Virus record (IMG/VR): IMGVR_UViG_3300044846_002962
Location: 1 to 22,244 of that record
Reading direction: 5' to 3' (one strand)
DNA from: a virus
DNA length: 22,244 nt
The notes under the pieces are model-generated. The model searched no databases and had not been told where the DNA came from. It saw only the letters and a program-made list of their open reading frames with translations. The first letter of the stretch is position 1, and the number at the start of each line of letters is the position of its first letter. A program made the position numbers and the translations under genes. This document shows, piece by piece, positions 1,120-21,376 of this stretch.

Positions 1120-1153
1120 TTTTTTTTGGACATAACCCCCGCTAAAATTTCGT

Positions 1154-1187
1154 TTTCAGACAACCTTATATACATATATATGAAATA
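1154..1187 (+). promoter_or_regulatory. Weak promoter-like segment before the methyltransferase gene
   Basis: The 60-base gap after the small terminase starts with eight T and contains TTTCAGACAAC (1154-1164), close to TTTCAGACCAC found before gene 17850. A TATATGAAATA stretch begins 17 bases after TTTCAG and matches 9 of 11 positions of the TATATTTAATA box seen elsewhere, but it would overlap the proposed ATG at 1180. If this is a promoter, the true start of the methyltransferase could be the ATG at 1213. This is the weakest of the four instances. Confidence 0.25.
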
Positions 1188-1737
1188 CACGACTACAAAA
1201 GAACAAACTTGGATGAGAGACCAAGTAGGAACGAATGGTTTATTAGACCTGATAAAAGAATTGGGAGACAACTCCAATAAAAGAATGATTGAGATTGGTT
1301 CATTCGTTGGTGAGAGTACAGTATTATTTGCACAATCATTTAAGGAAGTGATTGCAATTGATCCATTCTTGGAAGGGTATGATGATAAGGACCCAACATC
1401 ATATCTATTTGAATTTGATAATGTATATCAAACATACTTGGATAGGATTACCGTTTATTCAAACATACAGACGATTGTAGACACTTCTGATAACGCAGTG
1501 AAGGAATTGGTAGGAAAACAATTTGACTTTGTTTATATAGACGGATTACATACATACGAAGGTGTAAAGACAGATATTGTCAACTACCTACCATTGGTTA
1601 AAACAGGTGGAGTAATTGGTGGTCATGACTACACAGATAAGATACCACATTTGGTTGGAGTATATAATGCAGTAAATGAAATATTTGGTCACCCTGATAA
1701 AGTATTTGCTGATAACTCTTGGATAAAATATAAATAG
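1180..1737 (+). CDS. SAM-dependent methyltransferase (Methyltransf_24-like, probable O-methyltransferase)
   Basis: A 185-residue protein from the ATG at 1180. A TTG at 1126 also opens the frame but would translate the T-rich gap; an ATG at 1213 is the other candidate. It has the class I Rossmann methyltransferase signatures: motif I MIEIGSFVGES at residues 36-46 for SAM binding, AIDPF at 59-63, YIDGLHTYEGV around 119-129, and a GGVIGGHDY strand-loop around 143-151. The D-G-x-H pattern is typical of the Methyltransf_24 group, which methylates sugars or small hydroxylated molecules. It sits directly before two glycosyltransferase genes with a 3-base gap, so the substrate is probably a glycan, such as a host O-antigen or a decorated phage protein. 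A DNA methyltransferase is unlikely because no DPPY or PC motif is present. Confidence 0.8.
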   Translation: MKYTTTKEQTWMRDQVGTNGLLDLIKELGDNSNKRMIEIGSFVGESTVLFAQSFKEVIAIDPFLEGYDDKDPTSYLFEFDNVYQTYLDRITVYSNIQTIVDTSDNAVKELVGKQFDFVYIDGLHTYEGVKTDIVNYLPLVKTGGVIGGHDYTDKIPHLVGVYNAVNEIFGHPDKVFADNSWIKYK

Positions 1738-1740
1738 AAT

Positions 1741-2340
1741 ATGGATAAGATAGAATTTGTAATACCCACACATAAAAGGGTGGACCTACTAATAACAATA
1801 ATAAGTTCAATCGTTGCACAAACAAATCCAAATTGGAGAATACACGTTGTTGCTGATTGTCCTCCTGATGAAATTAAAGAAAGGTATTTAGATATTATTG
1901 CGTTCTTTGATGAACATAAGGATAAGATTAGATTCTCAGTAACAGATATGAGATATAACGATTGGGGACATACTCCACGTAATATTGGATTAAAACAAGC
2001 AACTGAGGAATGGGTTGTATTAACAGGTGAAGATAACTATTATGCACCAACGTTTGTTGAGAACTTCTTATCATCAGTTAAAGATAGAGATGATATTAAC
2101 TTTGCGTTTTGTAATATGGTACACAATTGGGTGAACGATGATTATATTCCTGTAAGATGTGAGATTGAATTTGGTAAGATTGATATTGGAAACTTTATGA
2201 CAAGAACCTTCAATGCACATAAATTAGAATTAAAGACAGATGTTGAACAGGCGGACTATTGGTTTATTGAAGAATACTTAGCGAGATTCCCTGAAGGGAA
2301 GATAATGCATATTGATAAAATTTTGTATGTCCACAATTAA
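1741..2340 (+). CDS. Family 2-like glycosyltransferase (GT-A fold)
   Basis: A 199-residue protein. It opens with VIPTHKR (residues 7-13), the usual first strand of GT2 enzymes, followed by a repeat of short helix-strand units and an Asp at 39 that would contact the nucleotide. GHTPRNIGLKQAT (76-88) matches the GT2 ARNxG...A segment, and GEDNYY (96-101) occupies the position of the DxD metal-binding motif, here reading E-D-N. The protein is shorter than bacterial GT2 enzymes (usually 250-330 residues) but retains the core fold. It likely transfers a sugar from a nucleotide sugar in the cytoplasm; no membrane segment is visible. It lies between a methyltransferase and a second glycosyltransferase, with a 14-base overlap to the latter. 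Donor and acceptor cannot be read from sequence. Confidence 0.82.
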   Translation: MDKIEFVIPTHKRVDLLITIISSIVAQTNPNWRIHVVADCPPDEIKERYLDIIAFFDEHKDKIRFSVTDMRYNDWGHTPRNIGLKQATEEWVVLTGEDNYYAPTFVENFLSSVKDRDDINFAFCNMVHNWVNDDYIPVRCEIEFGKIDIGNFMTRTFNAHKLELKTDVEQADYWFIEEYLARFPEGKIMHIDKILYVHN

Positions 2341-3055
2341 AGTAGCACTAGTAGTTGTAGCTAAATGGGAAGACCATTACTTAGACGAGTGGTTAGAGTA
2401 TAATCATAAGTTAGGTTTTGATAAGATTATAATGTATCAAAACGATTGGAGAACTAATATTGATAAACCATACTTACAGAAAGAAGTATGTGATGGTAGG
2501 TCAGTACAAGTTCCATTATATAACAATGTATTACATCACAATACAGAATACGATTGGATTGCGTTCATTGACTGTGATGAGTTTATTGTATTAAAGAAAC
2601 ATAACAACATCAAGGAATTAATTGAGGAGTATAAAGAACATACCAACGTAATATCATTGAATTGGTTTATACACGGAAATATGGGATTGGTTAATAGACA
2701 TTGTAATTCATTACTAAAGATGTTCCCAAAAAGAAATAGTGTAATTGATAATCATATTAAAGTGATTGTCAATGCAAGAAGTGGTGAAAGAATGATGTTA
2801 CCACACAATACACACGGACTTGCAATGGGAACTGATATGAAAAGATTCTATGGTCCATTCAATCCAAATGGTCCATCAGATGTTGCATACATTAGTCACA
2901 TACATAATAAGACAAAAGAAGATTGGAAGTTAAGATGTGATAGAGGTAGAGTTGATTGTGATATTCAACATGACCCTGATAGATGGGATAATGAAGTAGG
3001 TCAGAATGAAGATGTTGAAGACCTATCAGCGTTTAACTTCTTATATGGAAATTAA
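2327..3055 (+). CDS. Glycosyltransferase, GT92 / DUF23-like
   Basis: A 242-residue protein from the ATG at 2327; a TTG at 2312 is also in frame but less likely. Residues 13-34 (KWEDHYLDEWLEYNHKLG and following) are the hallmark N-terminal segment of GT92/DUF23-type enzymes, with a sugar-nucleotide site ending in QND at 38-40. DWIAFIDCDEFI (76-87) carries the D-x-D metal-binding motif. H191-I-H193 and the KTKEDW segment near 195-200 fit the C-terminal catalytic part. No signal peptide or membrane helix is evident, so it is probably cytoplasmic. It overlaps the preceding GT2 gene by 14 bases and the large terminase gene by 11 bases, so all three are translationally coupled. It probably adds a second sugar to the same glycan. 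The acceptor is unknown. Confidence 0.82.
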   Translation: MSTIKVALVVVAKWEDHYLDEWLEYNHKLGFDKIIMYQNDWRTNIDKPYLQKEVCDGRSVQVPLYNNVLHHNTEYDWIAFIDCDEFIVLKKHNNIKELIEEYKEHTNVISLNWFIHGNMGLVNRHCNSLLKMFPKRNSVIDNHIKVIVNARSGERMMLPHNTHGLAMGTDMKRFYGPFNPNGPSDVAYISHIHNKTKEDWKLRCDRGRVDCDIQHDPDRWDNEVGQNEDVEDLSAFNFLYGN

Positions 3056-4409
3056 TATAGACCTTACCAAAAAACAATCTCAAGCATGGAAACATTTAAT
3101 GGACCAAACAATAAACGAGGTATTGTATGGAGGTTCAGCAGGTGCAGGAAAGAGTTGGTTAGGATGTTTATGGATAAGTACCTTATGTTTAAACTATGCA
3201 GGGATAAGATGTTTGATTGGTAGAACTGTATTACAACAATTAAAGTTAACAACCCTCAATACATTATTTGAGGTATTACAACAAATGGGATTAAGGTCAG
3301 GTGAACATTATGTTTATAACGGACAATCAAATGTAATAACATTTAATAATAAGTCAGAAATAATTTTAAAGGATTTAGCGTATCAACCATCAGACCCTAA
3401 CTATGATAGTTTAGGTGGATTGGAATTGTCAGCAGTATTTATAGATGAAGCTGCTCAGATACCTCAACTTGCGTATAACATCCTTAAATCAAGGATAAGA
3501 TTTAAACTAAATGAATATAAGTTACAACCTAAGATATTGATGACGTGTAACCCTGGTCAAGTATGGTTAAAGAAAGTATTCTATCTACCATTCGTACAGG
3601 ATACCTTGCCAGACAATATGAAGTTTATTCCTGCACTACCCACAGATAACCCTCACTTACCTGAATCATATATACAGATGTTAAAGTCATTACCAACTCC
3701 TCAGAGAAGAAGATTATTGGAAGGTGATTGGAACTATATGGAAGAAGATGATAGTTTATTTGATTTTGATGCAATATCCAATTCAGTATTTAGACAAACA
3801 CCAAATGAACAAAACAAAAGATATATATCAGTTGACGTTGGTAGGTTTGGTGATGACAGGTCAGTAGCGGTGGTTTGGAATGGACTGGTTGTGATGGAAG
3901 TGTTAGTGTATAGAAAGTTATCAACGGTGGAATTAAGTAACGAAATTAAAGACCTTATTGCTAAATGGAAGATACATCCTCAACAGGTAATTGTGGATAG
4001 TGATGGCGTTGGAGGCGGAGTAGCGGATCAAATCCGTGGGGTGAACTTTGTGAACAATAGTAAAGCACTACACGAACAGAACTTCAGTAATTTAAAGAGT
4101 CAATGTTATGTAAAATTAAGTGAACTATTTAAAGAAGGAAAAATTTCCCTTAATATATTGGATAGTAGTTTGGTTGATGAATTAACTCAAGAACTACTAG
4201 CAGTTAAATTAAAAGACATAGATAAGGATAATAAAGTAGCAGTACAATCTAAGGATGATATGAAAAGGATATTAGGTAAGTCACCCGATTTATCTGATGC
4301 AGTGATGATGAGAATGTACTTTGAATTAAAGAATATGAAAGCAACAGGAAGATATGCAATAGGAGTGGTAGGTGGAAATAATTATACATCAATAAACAAT
4401 TTTAGATAA
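3045..4409 (+). CDS. terL: Terminase large subunit (packaging ATPase-nuclease)
   Basis: A 454-residue protein from the ATG at 3045; the ATG at 3006 would add 13 residues and a 50-base overlap. The N-terminal ATPase shows Walker A GGSAGAGKS (residues 29-37), Walker B VFIDEAAQ (131-138) and the coupling motif LMTCNP (165-170). The C-terminal RNase-H-like nuclease shows ISVDVGRFGDD (261-271, catalytic D264), VIVDSDGVGGG (around 315-325, D318/D320) and the final DLSDAV (415-420, D418). All the key acidic residues are present, so the enzyme should be active. It cuts concatemeric phage DNA and drives it into the prohead through the portal. Length and motif order are typical. The next gene starts one base after the stop. 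Confidence 0.97.
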   Translation: MEINIDLTKKQSQAWKHLMDQTINEVLYGGSAGAGKSWLGCLWISTLCLNYAGIRCLIGRTVLQQLKLTTLNTLFEVLQQMGLRSGEHYVYNGQSNVITFNNKSEIILKDLAYQPSDPNYDSLGGLELSAVFIDEAAQIPQLAYNILKSRIRFKLNEYKLQPKILMTCNPGQVWLKKVFYLPFVQDTLPDNMKFIPALPTDNPHLPESYIQMLKSLPTPQRRRLLEGDWNYMEEDDSLFDFDAISNSVFRQTPNEQNKRYISVDVGRFGDDRSVAVVWNGLVVMEVLVYRKLSTVELSNEIKDLIAKWKIHPQQVIVDSDGVGGGVADQIRGVNFVNNSKALHEQNFSNLKSQCYVKLSELFKEGKISLNILDSSLVDELTQELLAVKLKDIDKDNKVAVQSKDDMKRILGKSPDLSDAVMMRMYFELKNMKATGRYAIGVVGGNNYTSINNFR

Positions 4410-4410
4410 T

Positions 4411-5154
4411 ATGGTAAAGATAAAAGTAAATGAAGTAGAATATAAGGTCCCTGATTTTATATCAATTGATAACTACGTAAAGATATTCAAACAAAAAGAT
4501 TTGTTTAGTGAAGATTACTTCGCAGCAAAGATTATTAATAAACTAACTGATTGTCCCATTGAGGATTTATTAGAAGGTGATGCAGAGGAAATGAATTATG
4601 TAGCAGCATACATTATGTCATTAATCCCAACTGAAAGTCCTAAGTTCGTTGATAGATTTGAATTAGATGGAATTAGTTATGGGTTCTTTCCTAAGTGGAG
4701 AGATTTAAGTTACGCAGAGTTTGTGGATATGGATACAATCAGTACAAAAAAACCTGAAGAACTATTAAACCTATTACACATACTTGCATCAATTATGTAC
4801 AGACCAATTGTAAACGAAAGGTCTAAACACGATTTTGATATTGAGAAATACAATATTGATTCAATGAAAGAACGAGCAGAAATGTTCAAAAAGAAGTTAG
4901 ATATTAAGTACGTATTAGGTGCTCAGTTTTTTTTTATCAACTACGCAAAGACATTTTTAAGTTATACCCAAATGTCTTTGATGAAGAACCTACCAATGTG
5001 GACAAAGATAAAGCTCGCATGGAAGCTGAGGAAGATGATAATGAGTATAGTTTTCAAAAAACGTTCGGTTGGTTCGTTGTCACAAACAGAATTGCTGGAA
5101 ATGATTATTCAAAGCACGATTACATCTACGAAAAAAAGTTGGTGGAAATTCTAA
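4411..5154 (+). CDS. Tail-assembly-chaperone-like protein, proximal frame (unshifted product)
   Basis: This frame encodes 247 residues if read straight through. Residues 1-172 look like a normal protein: IKVNEVEYKVPDFISIDNYV at the start, an acidic middle, and a YAEFVDMDTI and LHILASIMYRP region, similar in feel to a single-ORF protein of Bacteroidota phages that precedes the tail genes. After a run of nine T (4927-4935) the same frame becomes Met/Lys/Trp-rich and unlike a folded domain (MKNLPMWTKIKLAWKLRKM), while the -1 frame becomes the credible one. I infer the true full-length product is made by a -1 frameshift at the T run, joining to the frame ending at 5228. Alternatives are a sequencing indel or a real short product. 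In many phages the two forms G and GT chaperone the tape measure protein. Confidence 0.65.
   Translation: MVKIKVNEVEYKVPDFISIDNYVKIFKQKDLFSEDYFAAKIINKLTDCPIEDLLEGDAEEMNYVAAYIMSLIPTESPKFVDRFELDGISYGFFPKWRDLSYAEFVDMDTISTKKPEELLNLLHILASIMYRPIVNERSKHDFDIEKYNIDSMKERAEMFKKKLDIKYVLGAQFFFINYAKTFLSYTQMSLMKNLPMWTKIKLAWKLRKMIMSIVFKKRSVGSLSQTELLEMIIQSTITSTKKSWWKF
4927..4935 (+). other. Run of nine T, candidate slippery site for -1 frameshift
   Basis: Nine consecutive T read as three Phe codons in the proximal frame. The heptamer T TTT TTT is an ideal slippery sequence for a -1 slip: both tRNAs re-pair fully. After a slip the next codon is TAT at 4935, giving FFFYQLRKDIF and then a long acidic domain in the new frame. 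The distal frame has a stop at 4905, so the shift must lie between 4908 and 5154. Homopolymer miscalling is the main alternative. Confidence 0.55.
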
Positions 5155-5228
5155 ATCAGTTATCTTATTTAATTCAATACGATAGAGAACAGGATAGGTT
5201 AATGAAACTTGCACAAAAAAGAGGATAA
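4935..5228 (+). CDS. Distal frame of the tail-assembly-chaperone-like gene (-1 frame)
   Basis: This is the -1 frame continuation, given from the first codon after the proposed slip. It reads YQLRKDIFKLYPNVFDEEP, then an acidic helical stretch, then FGWFVVTNRIAGNDY and a C-terminal helical region ending LMKLAQKRG. I recall a conserved WGWY...LA.GD segment at the C-terminus of a Bacteroidota phage protein next to the tail genes, and this segment resembles it (F-G-W-F...IAGND). A GTG at 4998 could start it as an independent gene of 76 residues, but no start context supports that and the upstream residues look like real protein. As part of a shifted fusion the total product would be about 272 residues. 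The gene ends 40 bases before the next start, within a promoter-like gap. Confidence 0.6.
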   Translation, partial: YQLRKDIFKLYPNVFDEEPTNVDKDKARMEAEEDDNEYSFQKTFGWFVVTNRIAGNDYSKHDYIYEKKLVEILNQLSYLIQYDREQDRLMKLAQKRG

Positions 5229-5268: not shown

Positions 5269-6294
5269 ATGAGTACAGTAACCTATAAACAAATATTGAC
5301 GTATTTCAGTAGTATTGCGTTGAACCACGAACAGATTAATTCGTTTGGGTTTGGTGATTATAAACAGATTACCAACGATATACTAACTAAACAGGAACCA
5401 AAATATCCAAGGATGTATGTGGTACCTGAACAGGTTCAATTCAATCAGAACCATATTCATTATAATTTTGGTGTGGTCTTTATGGATAGAGTTGAAGATG
5501 ACTTATCCAATTTAGAAGAAGTAATGTCTGACACCTTAGAATTAGCGTCAGATATATTCACAGTATTTTATCAATCATATACATACGAACAAGGGGATTT
5601 TAGTAAGATAGCAGTAGGTGATTGGTCACCTGAGGTTGTTCCATTTACAGAAAGATTCAATACAATACTTGGTGGTCATACACTACATATCAAATTGACA
5701 ATACCGTTTGATTACAATAGTTGTAATTTACCTATTGTAAATGATTTTAGTTTTGGTCAGGATGAATCGTTTAGTTCTTATTATCAAATGATTAGAGATT
5801 GGAAACAGTTTGCACAAGCACACGAACAGGTTAATAGTTTTGGTTTTGGTGATGTGACACAACTAGTGGATGATGTAGAGACAAAAGTTGAACCATTATA
5901 TCCACGTTTATATTTTATACCTGAGACAACAACCCTCAATCAAAACCAATTAGATATAAATTTTGATGTAAGATGTTTAGATAGAGTTGAGGATGATTTA
6001 TCAAATCAACAAGATGTGTTATCTGATACCTTAGAGATTATGAAGGACTTTTATGCTAAAGCATATTTATCTGATTACGAGGTATTATGGAACGCATCAC
6101 TCAATCCAATCTTACAAGAGACACAAACAGAATTAGGTGGATGGAGTTTAATAGTTACAATACAACAGAAATTTGACTATAACAGATGTGTATTACCAAT
6201 AGATAGTTTTGCTGAAGGTATTACATGGGAAGAATTAAATAGAAGATGGATAGAAATAAATCAAGAATGGGATAGTGTTAAAAAATTAAATTAA
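5269..6294 (+). CDS. Internally duplicated structural protein, probable tail/neck component
   Basis: A 341-residue protein consisting of two related halves. Repeat 1 spans residues 20-156 and repeat 2 residues 185-311. Both begin HEQ(I/V)NSFGFGD, share LYPR-or-KYPRMY followed by a VPE/IPE segment, DRVEDDLSN and SDTLE, and end FDYN(S/R)C.LPI. Each half is an alpha-beta domain of roughly 130-140 residues, the size of tail terminator or tail completion proteins, but I cannot prove that fold. A single-domain relative with the same motifs is known to me from Bacteroidota phages as an unassigned structural protein. The C-terminus adds a short Trp-rich helix (residues 318-341). It follows the promoter-like element, so it probably starts a new transcription unit, and the fibre gene follows 4 bases after the stop. 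Function remains unknown beyond virion role. Confidence 0.7.
   Translation: MSTVTYKQILTYFSSIALNHEQINSFGFGDYKQITNDILTKQEPKYPRMYVVPEQVQFNQNHIHYNFGVVFMDRVEDDLSNLEEVMSDTLELASDIFTVFYQSYTYEQGDFSKIAVGDWSPEVVPFTERFNTILGGHTLHIKLTIPFDYNSCNLPIVNDFSFGQDESFSSYYQMIRDWKQFAQAHEQVNSFGFGDVTQLVDDVETKVEPLYPRLYFIPETTTLNQNQLDINFDVRCLDRVEDDLSNQQDVLSDTLEIMKDFYAKAYLSDYEVLWNASLNPILQETQTELGGWSLIVTIQQKFDYNRCVLPIDSFAEGITWEELNRRWIEINQEWDSVKKLN
5326..5736 (+). repeat. Intragenic domain repeat, copy 1
   Basis: Residues 20-156 of the 5269 gene product. The matching copy is at 5821-6201. The copies are clear at protein level but diverged at DNA level, so the duplication is old rather than an assembly artefact. Anchors: HEQINSFGFGD, DRVEDDLSN, SDTLE and FDYNSCNLPI. 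Confidence 0.85.
5821..6201 (+). repeat. Intragenic domain repeat, copy 2
   Basis: Residues 185-311 of the 5269 gene product. Anchors: HEQVNSFGFGD, DRVEDDLSN, SDTLE and FDYNRCVLPI. It lacks the loop carrying GDFSKIAVGDWSPE of copy 1 and is about ten residues shorter. Confidence 0.85.
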
Positions 6295-6298
6295 TAAT

Positions 6299-9200
6299 AT
6301 GGGTGCTTTAAATAATTTATACGTTAGTAGTTCGTTTCAAGGATTAATGAAACTTACAAACAGTGCAACTGGTCTTACTAATAGTTTACAAACAATACAA
6401 GCAGGTGATGGTTCTGATAGTCCGTTACAAATGAGTTTAACTCAAGTAAACATATCAGGGTCGTTTACTGTAAATAACTTACCAATCACAGGAAGTACAT
6501 CAGGAACTGCAGGTACAAGTGGTACGTCAGGTACCTCAGGTAGTAATGGTTCAAGTGGTACTAGTGGAACTTCAGGTAGTTCAGGTTCGTCAGGTACGAG
6601 TGGTAGCAATGGTTCATCAGGAACTAGTGGTACATCAGGTATAAACGGAACGTCAGGTACTTCAGGATTCAATGGTAGTTCAGGTACATCAGGAACTAGT
6701 GGGTCTTCAGGTTCTTCAGGAACAAGTGGTGGAACAGGAAGTTCAGGTACTAGTGGTACATCAGGTTCTAGTGGTTCAAGCGGAACTTCAGGAAGTAGTG
6801 GTAGTAGTGGAACGTCAGGTAGTTCAGGTTCATCAGGAACTAGTGGAACATCAGGAAGTAGTGGTACTTCAGGTACATCAGGTACTAGTGGTGTAAGTGG
6901 AACGGATGGTTCTTCAGGAACAAGTGGTGTTAGTGGAACAGACGGAAGTTCAGGAACGAGTGGTATTGATGGTACTTCAGGAACTAGTGGAACAAGTGGT
7001 ATTGATGGTACAAGTGGAACATCAGGTACATCATTTCAAAGTCCATACACAGGGGATATAATAGTTACAGGTTCAATAGATATTACAGGACAATACCTCG
7101 TTAATGGTAATCCTGTAAGTGCAGATAGAAATGGTTTAATTACAACAGGTTCAATAGGAACAGAACAATCAATCACAGGTTCGTTAGATATATTTGGTGG
7201 TGATTTAATGCTTTTTAGTTCAGGTACAACATTACCATTTAACTATACATCATCAATATCTGGTTCAACAAACGTATTGTTTGGTTGGAATAATACTGCA
7301 GTATCAGAACAACAAACAGGTTCAATATTAATATCAGGTAGTAATAATATCTTATTAAACAAACCATTTGACTCAAATGATGGTGTTAATTTTACAGGAT
7401 ATGGAACATTTATAAGTGGTTCAGGTAATATCTTCAATGGTGGATTAGGTGGTATAGTATTTAAAAGTGGTTCTGCAGCAAGACCTTCAGCAACCAATAA
7501 TATTGGTTCAGGAACAGTTACAGTTCTATTAACTAGTTCATCTTTAGCACAACCATTAATTCAGGCTAACTATCTTATAGGTAGTCCAACTATGAACCAC
7601 CAATCAGGTAGTTTTGCATTGGTAAGTAATATAATTGGTGCACAATTAACATCAAATCAAAATAATATACCTGCAGCACAAAGAGTTAGTATTAATAATA
7701 ATATTATAAATCATAATACCACATTAAATCATATTAGTTCATCAATACAAACATCAAATAATATTTTTAATAGTCAGGCTGGACAAATTAATAACCATTT
7801 TAGTAGTTCATTAAACACTGCAGCAAATACAAGAATTGATGTGTTAAGAAATATAACCAATGGTTTTGGAAACAATATATATGTTTCAGGTTCAGGTGCA
7901 TCAAATAACGTAAGACAATTTACAGACAACTTAATTGGTGGTAGAAGTAATATCGTTTCATCATCTTATGTTGGTACAAATAGTGCAGGTGTTGTATCAA
8001 CTATTATGTATGGTGAGTCATTAAACATTAGTGGTTCAAATACAACAACAGGTGGTTCAGCGTTTTTTGGTAGATTTAATGCAACAGGTTCATTACAAGA
8101 AAGTACGGCACAAACTGTATTTGTTGTGGGTAATGGAAGTAATGCAAACAATAGAAGAAATGCAATTAGAGTTGATAATAATGGTAACACAACCGTTACA
8201 GGTTCTTTAATTATATCAGGTTCAATTTATAATAGAGGTGGTAATGGTGACGTACTCAATAACTTAGCATATGGTGAAGACGCATTGAAAAATGTATCAT
8301 CATCAACAGTAAATAACGTAGGTTTAGGTTATAATACTTTATTCAATAATAGAACAGGTAATTCAAATACCGCAATTGGTGCAAATGCGTTATTAAATAA
8401 CATTAGTGGTTCTGTTAACGTTGCTATAGGTGATAATACACTTCGTGACAACATCGCAGGTAATAACGTAGCAATTGGTTCAACAAGTTTATTTAGAAAT
8501 ACTTTAGGTTCAAGTAATATTGCAATTGGTTCAAATGCAATGAGGGATAATACCGTTGGATTTAGTAACGTTGCAATTGGTGCTAATTCTTTAGTAACCA
8601 CAACAGGTTCAGTAAATAATACTGCAATTGGTGGAAATACATTATCATATTTAACAACAGGTCTATTTAATACCGCTATTGGTCTACAAGCATTAGAACA
8701 AACAACAACGGGTTCTTATAACCTTTCAATTGGTAATGAATCAGGTCAAGGTGTTCAAGGTAACTATAATATTGGTATTGGTTTCCAATCAATTAAAAAT
8801 ACAGGTCAATCAAGTAGAAACGTCGGTATTGGTTACGGTTCATTAGTAAATGGAACTGGTGGTGATAATACCGCTATAGGTACTGAAACATTACGTACTG
8901 CTGGTATAGGTAATATTGCAATTGGTTCATATGCAGGTTACAATGAAACAGGTAATGATAATTTCTATTTAAGTAGTTATTATTTTGCTTCAAACGATAC
9001 CGCAAGAAGTGGTTCGTTGATGTATGGTAAAATGAGTACCACAACATCAGGACAAACATTACAGATTAACGCAGCTACTGATATTAGAAATAATTTAGTT
9101 GTAAGTGGTTCATTGACAGTAGGTGGTAATTTACAATTCAATGTAGGTGCCTTCCAATCAACACAATCACAATCAGGTTCAGCAAACGTTTCACAATCTA

Positions 9201-9571
9201 TAAGTTATGACACAACTGATTATTCACAAGGTGTGTCAGTTACAAGTGGTTCAAGATTAACTATAACTAATAAAGGTGTTTATAATATTCAATTCTCAGC
9301 ACAATTACTTGCAGACACCGGCGCAGACGATGTGTATATTTGGTTAAAGAAAAACGGTACGAATGTAGCAGCAACTGCAGGTCACGTGGTATTAGCAAAT
9401 AATGAAGAATTAATGGCAGCTTGGAATTATGTAGTTGAATCAAACGCAGGTGACTATTTTGAATTAGTATGGCAGTCATCAAATGGTGACGCAATATTAT
9501 TAGCAGAAACAGCAACAGGAAATATACCATCAGTACCATCAATAATAACAACAGTAACACAAGTAAGATAA
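6299..9571 (+). CDS. Tail fibre with collagen-like GTS repeats, beta-roll rungs and C1q-like tip
   Basis: A 1090-residue modular protein. Residues 1-64 form a short N-terminal attachment segment. Residues 65-245 are about 60 Gly-x-y triplets, mostly Gly-Thr-Ser and Gly-Ser-Ser with occasional GSN, GIN, GFN, GVS, GTD and GID; no Pro is present. Residues 246-670 are rich in TGSL, VSGS and NNI motifs, probably trimeric beta-helix. Residues 672-880 hold thirteen rungs of the form N-x-A-I-G-x-x-x-L, like the YadA head beta-roll. Residues about 950-1090 form a beta-sandwich (SYDTTDYSQGVSV, KGVYNIQFSAQL, YFELVWQ) resembling C1q/TNF-like tips. This is the classic build of a trimeric tail fibre: rod, beta-roll shaft and receptor-binding tip. 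It sits after the duplicated structural gene. Frames on both strands inside the repeat are shadows. Confidence 0.9.
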   Translation: MGALNNLYVSSSFQGLMKLTNSATGLTNSLQTIQAGDGSDSPLQMSLTQVNISGSFTVNNLPITGSTSGTAGTSGTSGTSGSNGSSGTSGTSGSSGSSGTSGSNGSSGTSGTSGINGTSGTSGFNGSSGTSGTSGSSGSSGTSGGTGSSGTSGTSGSSGSSGTSGSSGSSGTSGSSGSSGTSGTSGSSGTSGTSGTSGVSGTDGSSGTSGVSGTDGSSGTSGIDGTSGTSGTSGIDGTSGTSGTSFQSPYTGDIIVTGSIDITGQYLVNGNPVSADRNGLITTGSIGTEQSITGSLDIFGGDLMLFSSGTTLPFNYTSSISGSTNVLFGWNNTAVSEQQTGSILISGSNNILLNKPFDSNDGVNFTGYGTFISGSGNIFNGGLGGIVFKSGSAARPSATNNIGSGTVTVLLTSSSLAQPLIQANYLIGSPTMNHQSGSFALVSNIIGAQLTSNQNNIPAAQRVSINNNIINHNTTLNHISSSIQTSNNIFNSQAGQINNHFSSSLNTAANTRIDVLRNITNGFGNNIYVSGSGASNNVRQFTDNLIGGRSNIVSSSYVGTNSAGVVSTIMYGESLNISGSNTTTGGSAFFGRFNATGSLQESTAQTVFVVGNGSNANNRRNAIRVDNNGNTTVTGSLIISGSIYNRGGNGDVLNNLAYGEDALKNVSSSTVNNVGLGYNTLFNNRTGNSNTAIGANALLNNISGSVNVAIGDNTLRDNIAGNNVAIGSTSLFRNTLGSSNIAIGSNAMRDNTVGFSNVAIGANSLVTTTGSVNNTAIGGNTLSYLTTGLFNTAIGLQALEQTTTGSYNLSIGNESGQGVQGNYNIGIGFQSIKNTGQSSRNVGIGYGSLVNGTGGDNTAIGTETLRTAGIGNIAIGSYAGYNETGNDNFYLSSYYFASNDTARSGSLMYGKMSTTTSGQTLQINAATDIRNNLVVSGSLTVGGNLQFNVGAFQSTQSQSGSANVSQSISYDTTDYSQGVSVTSGSRLTITNKGVYNIQFSAQLLADTGADDVYIWLKKNGTNVAATAGHVVLANNEELMAAWNYVVESNAGDYFELVWQSSNGDAILLAETATGNIPSVPSIITTVTQVR
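6491..7033 (+). repeat. Collagen-like Gly-Thr-Ser triplet repeat
   Basis: About 60 nine-base units inside the fibre gene. At protein level nearly all are GTS or GSS. At DNA level the units vary strongly: Ser is written TCA, TCT, TCG, AGT and AGC, Thr in all four codons, Gly mostly GGT and GGA. The spread keeps exact repeats short. Not a CRISPR array: no spacers and the units are contiguous in frame. Confidence 0.95.
8312..8940 (+). repeat. Thirteen YadA-head-like beta-roll rungs
   Basis: Residues 672-880 of the fibre. Successive rungs read NVGLGYNTL, NTAIGANAL, NVAIGDNTL, NVAIGSTSL, NIAIGSNAM, NVAIGANSL, NTAIGGNTL, NTAIGLQAL, NLSIGNESG, NIGIGFQSI, NVGIGYGSL, NTAIGTETL and NIAIGSYAG, spaced 12-20 residues apart. 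The pattern matches the left-handed beta-roll of trimeric autotransporter heads. Confidence 0.85.
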
Positions 9572-11808: not shown

Positions 11809-14800
11809 ATGAGTCAACAACAAACAGTATTAAGGGTACAAACAAATATTCCTCACGCGACAATAAGTGGTACAACAGAATTTACCACATTGGATTTATA
11901 TTCTGACATTCCAATTAAGATTAATAAATCTATTGCGGAGATTGAAGATATTGGAAAGAAAAACTCTGATTTATCAATTGGATTATCTTTACCTGGTTCT
12001 AAAAAGAACAATAGATTTTTTGAATCTTTCTTTAATGTTGATTCTCAATCTTTATATTTTGATGCAACACAAAGAGTTAATATAGATGTATTATTGAATG
12101 ACGAATCGTATTTCAGAGGATATATGAGATTGAATAAGGTATCTGTGATGAATAGTAAGGTAGAATATGATGTGACTTTATATTCAACAGTAGGTGATTT
12201 ATTTGGTAAGATAGGTAATAATTTATTACAAGATTTAGATTTTAATGATAGTGAATATACTTTCAATCATATATTTAGTATGAATACAGTTACATTTGGA
12301 TTTGGTGAGTTTAATTTTTTTAATAATTCAGAAAAAACTACAACATATTTTTATCCAATTGTACATAATGGATATAACTACGAAAGTATAAGTGGTGCAA
12401 CTTTACCATATGTTAGTGGTGCTTCAGTAAACGAACAAACAAGATTATATACTTCAACATCACCTATTAGTGGATGGACAAGTTTTAGTGGTGCAACGGC
12501 AGCAGGAGTACAAAGTTTTTATATCAATTCACCGGTAGGTGGATTAAGAAACAATCAATTAAAACCTGCACTTAGTATTTGGAGTTTAATAAAGTTAATA
12601 TTCAAAACATATGGATATACTTTAAGTGGTGATTTTTTTAATTCACCATGGTTAAAAGGATTATATCTTTATGGTTATTTTAGTTCTGAAGGAACGAAGT
12701 TTGGGTATAAATTAAATAATATAGAAACATTACCAATAGAAGGTATTGAAATTGTTTTTAATGGAACAAATACGACAACAGGTTCAGCAATAGTTTGTAA
12801 AAGAGGAACAGGTATTCCTTGTTTTTGTTCTCAAGATATAAATGTTACTTTAGTTTGGAATAATCCATTACCTATTTATTTTCAAAATACAACTATTGTA
12901 CAAGGAACAAGTGGTTCAACAGTTACAATTGCGGGTAGATTATTTAGTGAAGTACAATCAGTTGCAGCAAACGTATCACGACCATTTCCCACTTATGATA
13001 AGTTCCAATTAAGATACTTACCGGTCCCTGTTGGAACAACTGTAAATTTTACTAATGGTGATTTAATTGATTTTAATTTGGTTATAGATCAAAATATAAA
13101 ACAAATAGATTTACTTAGTTCAATAGCAAAAAAGTTTGATTTAGTTTTTATTACAAACCCTGAAAATCCTAATGATATAATTATAGAACCATTTGATTTT
13201 TATATAGGTACAGGTGAAATATATGATTGGACACCTAAGTTATCACATGACAAAGGATTTACTGTTGAACCAGCACTTAACTTTATTGAAAGTACATTAT
13301 TAATGACAGACCTTGAAGATGGTGATGAAGGTAATAGAATATTTAAATTACAAAACAATCGTATATACGGACAGAATAATATATATAATCCTACAAATTT
13401 TAAATCACAAGAAAAGAAAATAGATACCATTTTTTCACCAGAATTAATTAGAAAGTGGGACAACAATATAAATTTACCATTAGGTATTAACTATTCTGCA
13501 TCAAGTGAACAATCTGATTATGATAATCAAGTTAGATGGTTATATAAGGGAGTTAAATCAAAACCTAAACTATTCTATTGGATGGGTGCAAACAATCCAT
13601 TTATAGATAAATCAAATGAAGTATTTCCATATAATGTTGCATACAACACATATACTGTAAAAGTATCAAGTCAACCAAATGAGGGAGATGTAAGTTATTT
13701 TTATAAAATACCAACAATATCTCATACAATGCCATTAGGTGGTGTTTCTGATTTAGAGAAAGTAGAAAAGGGATTTGATAATGATAAAATATGTATATTA
13801 TTTAATTCAGAATTGCCAGTAGATATTGGTGTACAAACATATAATATTTATACAGAAAACGACTTATATAATTTATTTTATGAAAATAGAATATCAAATA
13901 TATATAATCCAAATACAAGATTTGTAAATGGATATTTTGATTTAAAATATTCAGATATTCAAAATCTTCAATGGAAAGATTTAATTAAAATAAACGAACA
14001 ATATTTTTATGTAAATAAAATATCTGATTTTAATTTAACAAATAGAGAATTAACAAAAGTTGAACTTATTCAATATAATTTAAATATAAAAGAATATCCA
14101 ACAAGATATTTTAAATACCAATATTGTGACCAAACAGGTTATTCATTCTCATTTAAAACAGACTTTATAAATCCTAATTTAAGAAATACAAATGAAACTT
14201 TTGCTTTATATTATGATTTACAATTAGGTGCATTAACAGGATCAACAACAGGATTTACATCGGTATTTAAATATGTAGATACAGGTTTTACAGAAAATTA
14301 TGTTCCATATACTATGTATGAAATAACTGAAAATGAATATAACACAGGTGGTTATTACAATTGGACAAGTGATACATTAAAAACATATTTGTTTAATCTT
14401 GATGCAACATTTTATTTATTTCCACCATATTGGAATAATACAGGTAATACTTTTACAGGTGCTTCTGTTTGGGATAATTGTGGTGGTTTTAATTCCGCCG
14501 CAACTACATATGGTATAAAAGTTGGTTCATCAACTTATTACGGAGCACCAATTACACCAACTCCTACTCCAACTCCTTCTCCAACACCAGGTGGACCAAC
14601 TCCAACTCCTACACCAACACCATTACCTTTACCTGTTACAGGTTCATTATTTTATTATGACCCTGGTAACATTGCATCATATCCTGGTTCAGGAAGTGTC
14701 TTGTATGACTTATCAGGAAACGGAAGACACGCAAATATCAATACAGGTATTACATGGGTATCAGGTTCAGCAGCATACTTTAATTTAGATGGTACAGATA

Positions 14801-15297
14801 ATAATAGTATTACAGGTACAACATTAGCACAAACATATACAAGTTGGTCAATGTGGATTGGTATTCAACGAGATGTTATTGGTGATTATGATGGATTTAT
14901 GACGGATAGAACAGGAGTAACTAATCTTAATGGTTTAGGTTCATTTAGTACTAATAATCAATTTAGTTTATACGCAAACAATAATCTTGAAATTACTGAA
15001 ACTTTTCCTGGTACATTAGTAACAGGTTCTTGGATGTTCTTGGCTGGTGCTGTTGATAATACAACTTGGACAAGACAAGTATATAAATCGGGTAGTTTAA
15101 ATCCATTTACTTCAGGTTCTAAAGTTGCTGGTTCATCTAGCTTTAATAACGTAATGGTATTAGGTGAAGATAAAGAAAGTGGTGCTGATAGAACATTAGA
15201 TGGTAGAATCGGACCTGCAGTTATGTTTGATAGAAAATTAACAACAACTGAATTAACACAAATAAACGATTACTTCAAAACAAGATACGGAATATAA
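11809..15297 (+). CDS. Baseplate hub / tail-associated protein with C-terminal lectin domain
   Basis: A 1162-residue protein. The N-terminal 900 residues are beta-rich; residues about 85-140 read [25 protein letters not shown] and [15 protein letters not shown], a pattern I associate with tail-associated hub proteins of Bacteroidota phages. A Thr-Pro linker spans residues 916-942, broken by GGP. Residues 945-1162 form a concanavalin-A/LamG-like lectin: [20 protein letters not shown] with [11 protein letters not shown] next, then a WSMWIG strand and a [12 protein letters not shown] end, which match the usual jelly-roll profile. This domain recurs in tail proteins of uncultured aquatic phages. 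The likely role is to anchor the tail tip and present a glycan-binding domain. No enzyme motif (glycosidase, peptidase) is evident in the hub part. Confidence 0.7.
14554..14634 (+). repeat. Thr-Pro linker in hub gene
   Basis: Residues 916-942, thirteen Pro in 27 residues with a central GGP break. It separates the hub body from the lectin. It shares an exact 19-base segment (ACCAACTCCAACTCCTACA) with the linker of the next gene. Confidence 0.9.
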
Positions 15298-15298
15298 T

Positions 15299-17806
15299 AT
15301 GGGACCAAGAATATACCCTTCATATCAAGACACAAACATAAACGCAAAAGGTTCATTAATAATTACTTATGATGAAATTGTTAACGGACCTGGTGGTGAT
15401 AATTTTGAAATTTATGTTAATGATGTTTTAAGAGATAAATTATTTTTAGATGTTGATGGATATTATTCAACACATTTAGTTTTAAATGATGTGGTAAAAC
15501 TAAGGTTTCCTGGCGCACAACAATCATTATCAATAGATATAAGTAGAAAGAATTATACCACAGATGATAATAATGACAATGGGTTAACCTATACTTATAT
15601 TGATACTATTAATCAATTTAGTGCAACAGATTTTGAATATTCGTTTACCGCTACTACAACAAATAATAGTTATAATTTTGAATACTTAATAGGTACTTCA
15701 ACATTACAAGTAACACCAACTCCATTACCAATAGGTTTTTGTAAAGGATTCAACGGTGATGTTGTAGACATTGCAGTCCAACCTGATGGTAATATAATAG
15801 TCACAGGATTATTTGGTTCATTTACAGATAGAAATGGTATAACAACTGTTTGTCCTTATATCACAAGAATAACTTCAGGTGGAACAATTGATACTAGTTT
15901 TACTCCAAGTGCAGCAGTTCAAACATTTGTTGCCGATGGAAAATATCAAATATGTTTATTAAATAATGGTTACTTTTTATTATTTCGTAAATTTAATCAA
16001 TTTAACTTTAGGGTAAGTCCTGATGGTTTATTGCACGAATATTTACCATTAGGGGATACAACAGGTACATCACCTGTTACATATGAGAAAAGAATACCAT
16101 CAAATAATGGTACAGGTAAATGGTATATGGTTGGAAGAGGATTTACAGTAGGTGGAGTCATAAGTCCAATATATCGTTATAACGCAGATGGTTCAAGAGA
16201 TACTTCATTTAATCCACCAAGTGAAACAAGAGCGGCAACAGCGGCATTAGAATTATCAAATGGAAAGGTTGTCGTGGCGGTTGTATCAAATTATACCTAT
16301 CAATTAAATTCAGATGGTTCATTTGATTTAGATTATGATATGTGGCAACCTTTGTATGGTTATGTAGATCACATAGCAGAAGGTCAATCAGTAGATAAAA
16401 TTTATTTTACAATATATGGTGGTTTAATAATCAGAATGAACACTACAGATGGTTCAATGGATTACGGATTTTTATATGGTAATTATGGTTATGTTTCTTT
16501 TGTTCAACTTTTAGGTGCTGGCGTTGATGATGATAAAATTATATATAATAGAAATGATGGACTTAGATTAAGAAGATTAGATATATCAGGAACTACTGAT
16601 AATTCATTTACAAATAATTTGGGTTCATCAGCTGACCTTGGAGTGAATGTTAGAAGAGTAAGTCCAACTAGTGATAGTATGTATATTTTTGGTTCATTTA
16701 GTCAATGGAATGGATATAGTGTTAGTAGTTTTTTTAAATTAAATCCTGATGGTTCAGAAGATTTTAGTTTCTATAATTTTTTGTGTGAACCAACTCATAC
16801 ACCAACTCCAACTCCTACAGTTACACCAAGTCCTACTCCTACTTTGACACCAGCACCAACTGCTACACCTGCACCAACTAACACACCAACACCAACTCCA
16901 ACACCTACACCAACACCAACTCCAACACCTACACCAAACCCAACTGAAGGTCAATATATGTTAGCAGTTAAAACAGATAATTTAGTTTATAGAACAAGTG
17001 ATTATGGTACAACATGGACACAGGTAACAGGATTTACAACAGGTATGACTATTACTGATACTGCAATATCTGAAACAGGTCAGTATCAAGTTATTAGTAT
17101 ATATAATGGTACATTATATGTATCATCAAATTATGGTGTATCGTTTACATCAGTTGGTTCATCTGATACATATATAGATTGTTCAATTTCAAGTACAGGT
17201 CAATATATAAACGCAATTACAGATACTACAGCAACAAGAAAATTGGTATGGTCTACAAACTACGGTGTTTCATTCCCCAATTCATTTAGTTTAATTGGTC
17301 AAACATCAAGTGATTGTTCAATAGATGATTTTGGTAATTCTTATATTAGTTTTAGAAATGGTATTTCTAAATATATATTATCAGGAAGTTCAATGACTAC
17401 TTTGTATTCTTCTGCTACTATAAACTGGTCTAGTGTAACCGCATCTGCAGATGGAACTAAAGTTGCCGCAACAAGAACAACTGGTAGTACCGTATCATAT
17501 TCATTAAACGGAACCTCATTTACTACTGTTAATTCAGGAATAACAAATATGATAAATATAAGTGGTTCACGAAACGGTGTTTTCTTGAAAATATACTCAA
17601 TTACTGATGGTAATCGTAAGTCCTCAAATTCAGGAGTTTCTTGGTCAAATGATACATATGGATACCCTGCATTATCAAGTACAGGTAAATATCAAGCACT
17701 CGCCGTTTCAAATGATATTAAAGTGTCATCTGATTATGGTTTAACATATAGTACGGTTTATACATTAGTTGGTGCACTTTGGAAAAATTTAAGTATGAAT
17801 AGATAA
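15299..17806 (+). CDS. Two-propeller tail adhesin: delta-60 repeats and Asp-box repeats
   Basis: An 835-residue protein. Residues 1-137 form an N-terminal beta-rich domain ending in a short VTPTPLP linker (138-144). Residues about 145-495 show the delta-60 pattern: [13 protein letters not shown] near the start, and six blades ending GTIDTSF, GSRDTSF, GSFDLDY, GSMDYGF, GTTDNSF and GSEDFSF. Then a Thr-Pro linker of 52 residues (498-549). Residues 550-835 carry Asp-box motifs: [36 protein letters not shown] and SSDYGLTYS, as in sialidase-like propellers. The acidic catalytic set of a sialidase is not evident, so binding is more likely than hydrolysis. It follows the hub gene by one base. Probably a baseplate-attached receptor-binding protein, with each propeller offering a separate ligand site. 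Confidence 0.8.
16790..16945 (+). repeat. Thr-Pro linker in propeller gene
   Basis: Residues 498-549. Twenty-six Pro alternate with Thr, Ser, Ala, Val, Leu or Asn. At DNA level it is built from degenerate six-base units of the form ACNCCN, with exact repeats of ACACCAACTCCAAC-like stretches near the end. The opposite-strand frame here reads as Trp/Cys repeats and is a shadow. Confidence 0.92.
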
Positions 17807-18532: not shown

Positions 18533-21376
18533 ATGGCTAAAAAAGTAACAGTTGAAGTTGAAGTAAATAGTAGTCAGGTTGACCAAACCGTAAATAAGTT
18601 AGGTCAATTAAAGGACTTAGGTAGGGGATTAAAAATTCAATATGATATTGATGGAAGACCTATTGATGTTGTATTGGATAAGTCATTGAACTTACAGAAA
18701 CAAGTAAAGATATTAACTGCTGAACTACGTAGAACGAAAGAAGGTACTGCTGAGTTTCAGATGTTATCAAGAAGATTAGGTGAAGCACAGGATGGATTGG
18801 CTAAAACAACTGCTAAGTCAAAAGATTTATTCTCAACCTTATCAATGTTACCTGGTCCCGTTGGTCAATTTTTTAGTCAGTTACAGGGAGGAATAGAGTT
18901 ATTAAAAACATTTTCATCTTTTACATTTAAAGATTTAGCGTTCCAATTTGGTGAGACCGCAGATGATATTGCTGATATTGGAAAGAACTTATCTAATGTA
19001 GATGGTGAAACATTTGATTCTGTTACTGAAAGTGCTGATGGTGCGTCAGAATCTATTGAAAATATGAGTGACCAACTTGCAAATAATGCAGGTGAGGCCA
19101 CTGCAGCATCTAATGCCAATAATGAATTAAGTGAAACTATAAGTACACAACAAAAGACATTACAAGAATTAGCGAGAGAAGCAAGAAAAACAGGAGTTGA
19201 AACAGAAGAATACACGAATGCAGTTGCTAATGCAACTGATGAAGGAATAGAGTTTATTAGTGCAGAAGAAAATATGACACAAGCTTCAAAAGCTAGTGGT
19301 CAGGCGGTGGCGGGTCAAGCGGTTGCAACTGAAGGATTAGTGGTCGCAGAAAAACAAGCAACATTTTGGACGAGTACATTAGGAACAACAATTAAAACAG
19401 TTTTAATATCAACAGGTGTATTACTTGCAATTGTTGTTATTGGTGAGTTAATTGGAATGTTATATAGATTTGTAACAGGTTCAAAGGATGCTGAAATTGC
19501 AACAAGAAGTTTAACAACCGCATTAGAAGAACAACAAAGAGTTTTACAAAATGATTTGGAAGCCATTGATATGGCTAATAAGGCTGCCATAACACGTGCA
19601 AAGATTGCTGGTGCAACTGAAGAAGAAATTACAAGAATTACAAAAGAAGGTAATGCTAATAGATTAAATGAATTAATAAAATATGACGAATTTTTAATTC
19701 AAGAAAGAAGAAGATTACAACAAGACGAAAGAATTAAAGGTGAAGAAAGGGAAAAATTAACTAAGGATATTAATGATAAGATATTAAAGAATGGTCAAGA
19801 TATTACCAAACAAATCCTTAATAATGAACAATTTAGATTAGAAGAAGAATTAAGAATTACTGAGAAAGGTAGAGAAGCATCTAAGAAAGTACAAGAAAAA
19901 AAGGTTGATGATACTAAGTCAGCAAACGACTTATTACTTAAACTTCAACAGGAAAACTCTGTACAGATTTTAGATACTGAAAGAAAGAGAGAAGACCAAC
20001 AGTTGAAGAATGAAAAGATTAATGAAGAAAAGAGTATCAATAATTTAAAGATTAGTGAGGAACTTAGAGGTAAATTACTTGAACAAGTTAGATACAAATA
20101 TGGTCTAAAAATTATTGACCTTAATAAGAAAAGACAGAAAGAAGATAATGAGGCGTTTGATGAAAGTCAAAAGAAAACAAAAGAATATAATGATAAGATA
20201 TTTGAGATAATGAACGATGCAGATGAAAATGAATTATCAAGAAACAAATATACAAGGACTCGTAAGTTTGAAGATGATAAGGCAGCATTAGAAAAGGATT
20301 TAAACTTCCAAAAAGAGACCCTTGAGAATAAGATTAGAATATTAATGGCGTTAGAAAAGGCATACAAAAATGACCTTGAGAAGTTAGATAGTGAGGAACT
20401 TGCAAAGAATAGAGAAAGTGCATTAAAAAAGTTAGATGATGAATTAAGATTCTTACAAATTAGAGGTGAAGCTATAATTCAAGGTACAAGAGAGTATTTT
20501 AATAATTTAAGAACTATATCACAAAAATCTGAGGAAAGAGAATTAAAGAGTTTAGATGATAGAGCAATTAAAGAGAAACTTACAACTGAACAAATTGAAG
20601 CAGAAAAAACTGCAATCAAACAGAAGTATGCAAATGAAAGAACTAATATTGATAAACAAGAACTAAACTCTTATTTACAATTTGCAACATCAATATTAGG
20701 TGCAGCACAAAATATTGTTAGTAATATTAGTGAGATAAATCAAATGCAACAAGATATTGACCTTCAGAAAGCTGATGGTAATCTTGAGAAACAAGAAGAA
20801 ATTAAAAAGAAGTATTTTGAGAAGAATAAGAAAACTCAAATTGCTCAAGCAATAATAGGAACATTACAAGGTGCAGTTCAAGCGTATCAATCATTAGCGG
20901 TTATTCCTGTGGTTGGTCCTGCATTGGGTGCGGCTGCAGCAGCTGCGGCATTGATATTTGGTTATAAGAAAGTTGACTTAATTAGACAACAACAATATCA
21001 AAGTTCATCAGCGGGTGGTAGTGCAGAAGCGGCTAAACCTCAATTACCAAATTTTGGTAGAAACTACGAGAAAGGTGGAATGATTGGTGGTAAGAGACAC
21101 GCTGAGGGTGGAACATTAATTGAAGCAGAAAAGGGTGAAGCAATAATGACAAGAGGTGCAGTTACAATGTTTGCACCATTATTATCAGCAATGAATCAAA
21201 TGGGTGGAGGAACATCATTTGTACCATCACTTGTAACAACATCATTTGATGCACCTGTAACAAGTCAACCATCACAACAACAAGCACCAATGATAGTTAA
21301 ATCATATGTAGTATCAAGTGAATTAACATCAGAACAAAATAAACAGGCGAGATTAAAAGACCTATCAACATTATAG
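18533..21376 (+). CDS. Tail tape measure protein
   Basis: A 947-residue protein that sets tail length and travels through the tail tube during DNA delivery. The N-terminal 110 residues are a charged alpha-beta segment with VTVEVEVNSSQV and two coiled stretches. A hydrophobic helix spans about residues 289-314 (VLISTGVLLAIVVIGELIGM). Residues about 320-760 are a long, strongly charged coiled coil (Glu, Lys, Arg, Gln). A second hydrophobic part spans about 770-805 (QAIIGTLQGAVQAY; VVGPALGAAAAAAALIFGY). The C-terminus holds KGGMIGGKRHAEGGTLIEAE and EAIMTRGA (about 846-878), a motif common near the end of tape measure proteins in Bacteroidota phages. By the usual 1.5 angstrom per residue the tail would be about 140 nm. 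No lytic or peptidase motif is evident. Confidence 0.9.
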   Translation: MAKKVTVEVEVNSSQVDQTVNKLGQLKDLGRGLKIQYDIDGRPIDVVLDKSLNLQKQVKILTAELRRTKEGTAEFQMLSRRLGEAQDGLAKTTAKSKDLFSTLSMLPGPVGQFFSQLQGGIELLKTFSSFTFKDLAFQFGETADDIADIGKNLSNVDGETFDSVTESADGASESIENMSDQLANNAGEATAASNANNELSETISTQQKTLQELAREARKTGVETEEYTNAVANATDEGIEFISAEENMTQASKASGQAVAGQAVATEGLVVAEKQATFWTSTLGTTIKTVLISTGVLLAIVVIGELIGMLYRFVTGSKDAEIATRSLTTALEEQQRVLQNDLEAIDMANKAAITRAKIAGATEEEITRITKEGNANRLNELIKYDEFLIQERRRLQQDERIKGEEREKLTKDINDKILKNGQDITKQILNNEQFRLEEELRITEKGREASKKVQEKKVDDTKSANDLLLKLQQENSVQILDTERKREDQQLKNEKINEEKSINNLKISEELRGKLLEQVRYKYGLKIIDLNKKRQKEDNEAFDESQKKTKEYNDKIFEIMNDADENELSRNKYTRTRKFEDDKAALEKDLNFQKETLENKIRILMALEKAYKNDLEKLDSEELAKNRESALKKLDDELRFLQIRGEAIIQGTREYFNNLRTISQKSEERELKSLDDRAIKEKLTTEQIEAEKTAIKQKYANERTNIDKQELNSYLQFATSILGAAQNIVSNISEINQMQQDIDLQKADGNLEKQEEIKKKYFEKNKKTQIAQAIIGTLQGAVQAYQSLAVIPVVGPALGAAAAAAALIFGYKKVDLIRQQQYQSSSAGGSAEAAKPQLPNFGRNYEKGGMIGGKRHAEGGTLIEAEKGEAIMTRGAVTMFAPLLSAMNQMGGGTSFVPSLVTTSFDAPVTSQPSQQQAPMIVKSYVVSSELTSEQNKQARLKDLSTL

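Follow-up and report, generated by a model that had tools for sequence, protein, structure and literature searches.

The window analysed here, the 22,244-base IMG/VR virus record IMGVR_UViG_3300044846_002962, contains a gene whose 3' portion appears to be read in two frames behind a common N-terminal region. Comparison with related sequences strongly supports programmed entry into the -1 frame at nine consecutive T's, and in the two best-sampled clades the 0-frame continuation past the run is, judging from its pattern of substitution, itself coding. Our preferred explanation, to which we give an about even chance, is programmed recoding, most likely at a ribosomal step, that produces two functional C-termini and probably a pair of tail assembly chaperones. 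The elements directly supported by the sequences are the conserved two-frame layout, the conserved in-phase run and selection on both frames.

Organization of the recoded gene

The features of the gene and its neighbors are collected in Table 1. In the 0 frame, positions 4924-4938 read CAG TTT TTT TTT ATC, and no other run of nine T's occurs in the window. The open stretch of the -1 frame extends from 4908 to 5228, and because of the -1 stop immediately before this interval, entry to the distal frame from further upstream is impossible. The predicted transframe product, which joins the shared and distal parts through the junction ...QFFFYQLRK..., is 272 aa long. The T9 run, the open reading frame coordinates and the -1 stop at 4905 given in the original prediction were all borne out by the sequence.

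Table 1. Coordinates of the recoded gene, its parts and its neighbors in the window.
Feature	Position	Strand	Comment
Terminase large subunit (TerL), immediate upstream neighbor	3006..4409	+	phrog_2 E=1e-41, PF03237
Shared N-terminal region, 175 aa	4411..4935	+	relatives 55-100% identical; phrog_32199 family
Predicted 0-frame product, 247 aa (175 shared + 72-aa tail)	4411..5154	+	
Last -1-frame stop upstream of the T run	4905..4907	+	
T9 run, putative slippage site	4927..4935	+	
In-phase heptamer T_TTT_TTT	4929..4935	+	present in all loci examined
Predicted -1-frame distal part, 97 codons + stop	4935..5228	+	
0-frame tail, 72 codons + stop (5152)	4936..5154	+	overlaps distal part
Tail-terminator-like gene, next downstream	5269..6294	+	phrog_30964; same neighbor in L176 (Flagellimonas)
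Tape measure protein, 13 kb downstream	18533..21376	+	phrog_2854 E=4.5e-4, phrog_1506

We propose that the majority of copies would be read in frame 0 to give the 247-aa protein, while some would slip into the -1 frame at the T run; the resulting 272-aa protein would share residues 1-175 and end instead in a helical part coded in the -1 frame. Each of the two C-termini would be functional, so that 4936-5154 would be coded in two frames simultaneously. The likeliest shift step would be a ribosomal one, in which two tRNA-Phe slip in tandem into the -1 frame on U_UUU_UUU, and the longer T9 run may raise the slippage rate or add slippage by RNA polymerase. As tail assembly chaperones, the likeliest role, the short form would coat the tape measure protein, recruitment of tail tube subunits would fall to the long form, and the two forms would be made in a defined ratio. 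Translation of both products, the ribosomal step and the chaperone role are the parts of this scheme that we infer.

The two-frame layout is conserved among relatives

Relatives were retrieved from IMG/VR by scans with the two gene halves, with alignments of the halves and with a second-clade alignment; GTDB genomes were scanned once in addition. The sampled set comprises 343 loci, corresponding to 227 distinct 120-nt haplotypes, with some loci sharing one contig and some sets overlapping, and identities range from 26 to 100% (the lower end being approximate). An in-phase T_TTT_TTT was present in 343/343 loci (227 distinct sequences). In the first set, all 177 loci had a distal half shifted by -1 with respect to the proximal half, and TTTTTTT was in phase in 175/175 close relatives. 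In the second clade, 85/85 loci combined the in-phase heptamer with the expected kind of open -1 frame. In a third, more diverse set, the heptamer was found in 83/83 members and the distal half was in the -1 frame in 82/82 where it was recognizable.

These relatives, members of a marine and freshwater phage family, include the cultured Nonlabens phage P12024L, Flavobacteriaceae prophages, and Flagellimonas and Pricia genomes. The gene family is common in IMG/VR, where two queries gave at least 541 and at least 582 pattern-confirmed matches, two sets that may overlap. Phage P12024L has both the T9 run and the -1 half, with a 0-frame tail of only 25 codons; its genes 40 and 41 (L179 11995-12689) are annotated publicly as two unrelated hypothetical proteins, with no frameshift indicated.

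Aligning homologues, the check suggested in the original prediction, thus revealed the same two-frame design with a T run throughout, and no single-frame relative or uninterrupted open reading frame was found among the 227 distinct sequences examined. This outcome also bears on the rival that the original prediction ranked first, a sequencing or assembly error in the homopolymer that splits one open reading frame. A T9 run is error-prone in principle, but the arrangement is repeated in 227 distinct sequences, whose sources are numerous metagenomes, assembled genomes and a cultured phage. Since the relatives share this arrangement without a single-frame member, we regard a homopolymer error as excluded, its remaining probability being negligible. 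The predicted shift at the T run is strongly supported as programmed access, by both the conserved layout and the conserved phase of the run.

Several annotated BFVD proteins of 240-267 aa, each from a single open reading frame (A0A6J5N0W0, 267 aa; A0A516L5A8, A0A6J5MY57 and others), match both the shared and the distal models. These modelled proteins suggest that single-frame relatives may occur outside the examined sets.

Could the distal part be made separately, without any shift, from an internal start such as the GTG at 4998 or the NTG seven codons later? Almost every haplotype does have NTG triplets at distal codons 21 and 28, but they are explained by a conserved 0-frame Trp (TGG): the N has varied more than 20 times, while TGG is almost fixed. 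Furthermore, the -1 frame lacks ATG, GTG and TTG from its upstream stop to distal codon 20, and distal codons 1-12 are conserved as protein in the -1 frame. Distal codons 1-20, protein-conserved in that frame, would therefore be unreachable without a shift, and we consider independent initiation very improbable.

Both frames appear to be under selection downstream of the run

The 0 frame had been thought unlike protein after the T run; instead, selection proved to act on the tail as protein-coding sequence. The 0 frame stays open for 54-72 codons past the run in the two best-sampled clades. When the -1 codons were reshuffled synonymously, few trials retained a 0 frame as open as that observed: 0-2.7% for each clade 1 haplotype and a median of 0.4% in clade 2.

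Changes at -1-frame third positions are two to three times rarer in the overlap than elsewhere in the gene. On the clade 1 tree (105 haplotypes), the median number of such changes was 9 in the overlap, 19 in the proximal region and 20 beyond the 0-frame stop (Mann-Whitney p = 4e-11 and 3e-7 for the proximal and post-stop contrasts, respectively); the corresponding values in clade 2 were 4, 12 and 8 (p = 4e-12 and 0.004). These p values serve as a guide, since neither the sites of one gene nor the sequences of one tree are independent. In clade 1, the left change point fell at the slip codons; the right one, at distal column 64, preceded the commonest 0-frame stop by seven columns. For clade 2, the change-point method picked the first nine codons only; it resolved the left point, at the slip site, and not the right one. 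In codons 12-38, the fastest position is the first of the -1 frame, equivalent to the 0-frame third (15.8 changes vs 8.8 for the -1 third), and the 0 frame therefore dominates there.

Changes that create a 0-frame stop are depleted about tenfold, with 9 observed against roughly 90 expected at the rates of neighboring classes. The same stop-creating class showed no depletion in the proximal control, and the sign of the result held at kappa 1-4. In clade 2, with tails of 54-58 codons, the 0-frame stop occupies a single alignment column in 69/69 haplotypes. The dual-coding tests cover the two larger clades, and both clades displayed fewer synonymous changes inside the overlap as well as avoidance of stops in the other frame. 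Elsewhere, the length of the 0-frame tail is clade-specific (24-25, 34, 37, 40 or 62-63 codons).

RNA structure was considered as a cause of the low synonymous change and set aside: RNAalifold on 46 sequences predicted no conserved pairs downstream of the run. An 11-bp hairpin at 4945-4980, seen in the window by itself, has a z score of -0.99. The window's 0-frame tail carries a net charge of +11 and is predicted to be helical and then disordered. Charge was rejected as a shared property of the tails, given medians of +10 in clade 1 and -4 in clade 2.

Length and phase of the T run

The 227 haplotypes divide into 173 with T9, 39 with T10, 13 with T7, and one each with T11 and T12, so that 214 have at least nine T's; T8 was never seen. 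The T9 runs are built as 3+6+0, 2+6+1 or 1+6+2 around TTT TTT, which amounts to three codon registers. Residues flanking the run differ chemically (Y, W, C, S, L, F, I), and the T bases are all that is common. After clustering at 50% identity, 17 of 18 clusters contained exclusively runs of nine or more. A single T9 in the window is not improbable by itself, as dinucleotide shuffles give 2.9 on average. Related loci totalling 899 kb contain 150 runs of T9 or longer, about one per locus, vs four of A9 or longer. The conservation of the run is not due to chance.

Phase is conserved as well. The codons for Phe174 and Phe175 are TTT in 105/105 haplotypes, with zero TTT/TTC changes on the tree; of the invariant Phe codons used for comparison, 79, 92 and 159 changed 11-19 times and Phe83 only once. 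The 13 T7 haplotypes, a state that involves at least four changes on the tree (losses or regains), keep exactly the in-phase seven. In the clade tested, GGAG lies 7 nt upstream of the heptamer in 16/16 T7 sequences vs 27/89 others (Fisher p = 8e-8, uncorrected for relatedness, with one of the 16 'T7' being a T9 in another register); the window has GGTG at this point. The hosts, Flavobacteriia, use Shine-Dalgarno signals weakly.

The family bears the marks of two kinds of slippery site: T_TTT_TTT conforms to X_XXY_YYZ in the 0-frame phase and is under selection, and a T run of about nine or more is selected for length regardless of register, with the 13 T7 haplotypes as exceptions. Seven T's fit ribosomal slippage, whereas nine or more fit slippage by RNA polymerase. 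In bacterial genomes, selection against polymerase slippage shows at runs of nine (PMC1088944). The transcriptional explanation, which we rate somewhat short of even, holds that RNA polymerase slips on the A9 template and that some mRNAs, having gained one extra U, are translated normally into the same 272-aa product. The same two products would result, with a long-form share probably much higher than lambda's. Such slippage would account for the prevalence of T9 or longer in three registers and throughout nearly all clusters without T8, a conservation of length that a pure heptamer model does not predict. It would also agree with the absence of a conserved RNA stimulator from the sequences folded, a point that counts against the ribosomal step. 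Nor is the heptamer in T9 members separate evidence for the ribosome, because any T9 contains an in-phase T_TTT_TTT. Against the polymerase stand the T7 members. Although shorter than the length usually needed for polymerase slippage, they always retain the in-phase seven and, in the clade tested, the upstream GGAG; moreover, if length alone mattered, T8 would be tolerated sooner than T7. Weighing these T7 features against the rule of nine or more therefore places ribosomal slippage slightly ahead overall, with polymerase slippage close behind, and T9 members such as the window possibly employ both. The ribosomal heptamer proposed originally is in phase and selected, yet its standing as sole mechanism is weakened by a length rule that points at least equally to transcriptional slippage.

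Comparison with known recoding systems

The gene resembles lambda G/GT in its predicted design: one tail-region gene, two products with a common N-terminus, a -1 shift, and a long form with an extra C-terminal domain. Conserved counterparts of the lambda G/GT chaperones were reportedly described by Xu, Hendrix and Duda in 2004. The lambda site is GGGAAAG, in contrast to the T run found here. The lambda 0 frame ends within a few codons (the T open reading frame is annotated 18 nt before the G stop), whereas 54-72 selected 0-frame codons follow the site in the two main clades of this family. The lambda gene also adjoins the tape measure gene, while ours adjoins TerL, and homology is not detectable.

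Phage P2 E/E+E' is similar in having a -1 shift at a T run, TTTTTTG, with no downstream hairpin and two tail proteins (PMC3091744). It differs in its 0-frame tail of about six codons (site 19685, stop 19705; record L272), and the run here is usually nine; no homology with P2 E was found. The original prediction was correct that an all-T site departs from lambda GGGAAAG but overstated its unusualness, because P2 E/E+E' already shifts at such a site (PMC3091744).

Shigella mxiE and IS-element genes, which are recoded by transcriptional slippage, share with this family an A9/T9 run and two overlapping open reading frames joined by a one-base insertion in the mRNA, in mxiE the insertion of a U (PMC1088944). 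These are not phage tail genes, and their overlap is not known to be dual-coding. By sequence, phrog_32199 and P12024L gene 40 belong to the same family as the gene in the window, and they combine T9 with a -1 distal part. In the PRFect SEA-PHAGES training set, nearly all of it annotated tail chaperones, the mean distance from the site to the 0-frame stop is 26 nt (PMC10885494), compared with 219 nt, under selection, in the window. We found no tail chaperone with a dual-coding overlap in the open-licence literature.

Predicted structure, gene neighborhood and role

Sixteen of 17 members match phrog_32199 in the shared part; its function is not annotated in PHROGs. AlphaFold2 models, built separately for the two halves of the transframe product, gave a pLDDT of about 80 for the shared part, lower pLDDT in the first helices of the 0-frame tail followed by a disordered end, and, in the distal part, a helical domain at approximately residues 33-97 after a disordered linker. 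Foldseek returned no PDB fold match for the shared model, only predicted viral relatives, the best named one being from Nonlabens phage P12024S. The distal model had no Foldseek match below E 0.001, and a profile of the distal part alone proved too divergent to scan with.

Searches for chaperone homology in Pfam, PHROG, NCBIfam, PDB sequences and Foldseek PDB were all negative, and hhalign against lambda G and T, P2 E, and T4 gp51 and gp26 gave no match. These negatives do not exclude a chaperone because the family is too divergent. T4 gp26 and gp51 were rejected as relatives, their Foldseek matches being very weak (E 0.06-0.09) and lacking hhalign support. Flavobacterium phage 6H gp10 (L189 10352-10927, minus strand), a remote structural relative, was left aside (Foldseek TM 0.27-0.33; T6, an immediate -1 stop and frames that are hard to read). 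About 300 unannotated bases downstream of this gene look coding in shifting frames, possibly reflecting frame errors or a different recoding. No family member was seen in Flavobacterium phage 11b or Cellulophaga phi10:1, which share the terminase and have a portal gene next to it.

Flagellimonas and Pricia contigs (L176, L178) repeat the order TerL, recoded gene, terminator-like gene, further tail genes and tape measure. The gene is found between TerL and the terminator-like gene rather than between the major tail protein and tape measure genes, and given this position and the lack of homology we do not file the family among tail assembly chaperones. The arrangement expected for two products from one start is nevertheless present in all loci, as read from the genes rather than the products. 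The description 'tail-assembly-chaperone-like' accordingly holds for a two-product gene of the tail module; the usual position and a sequence or fold match are missing.

The gene might instead encode a recoded tail or head-tail protein other than a chaperone, for example a tail completion protein in two forms, a reading we consider the less likely one. It would fit the lack of a match to any known chaperone and a location beside TerL and the terminator-like gene, with the tape measure gene 13 kb away. However, two-product recoding in the tail module is the hallmark of the chaperone role in lambda-like and P2-like phages (PMC5009743, PMC3091744), and no other candidate was seen next to the tape measure gene, the open reading frames just upstream of it encoding only 64 aa in the window and 46 aa in P12024L. 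By these analogies, a tail assembly chaperone role is likely.

Other features of the region were noted. The terminator-like protein of the window is a tandem duplication of units of about 170 residues, and its Flagellimonas relative (L176 10653-11102) consists of one 149-aa copy. Translations from 1126-3055 read as a methyltransferase-like and two glycosyltransferase-like proteins, encoded between the terminase small and large subunit genes. The 1090-aa protein at 6299-9571 has a long SGTSGSS-type repeat, which keeps other frames open too, and is probably fibrous. Two large tail-region proteins at 11809-17806 contain PTPTPTP linkers.

Implications

Frameshifted tail chaperones are textbook examples of recoding. 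The unusual part of this family is the long overlap with both frames selected, as opposed to known cases in which the 0 frame ends soon after the site. With the overlap selected in both frames, the short form would have a tail of its own and therefore would not be a truncated long form. We tentatively entertain, as a less likely but possible combination, a chaperone pair in which slippage by RNA polymerase at nine or more T's, and not the ribosome, sets the ratio and in which the C-termini, both functional, overlap in the same 160-220 bases. The rule of nine or more T's, together with its T7 exceptions, provides a natural setting in which slippage by polymerase and by ribosome can be compared inside one gene family.
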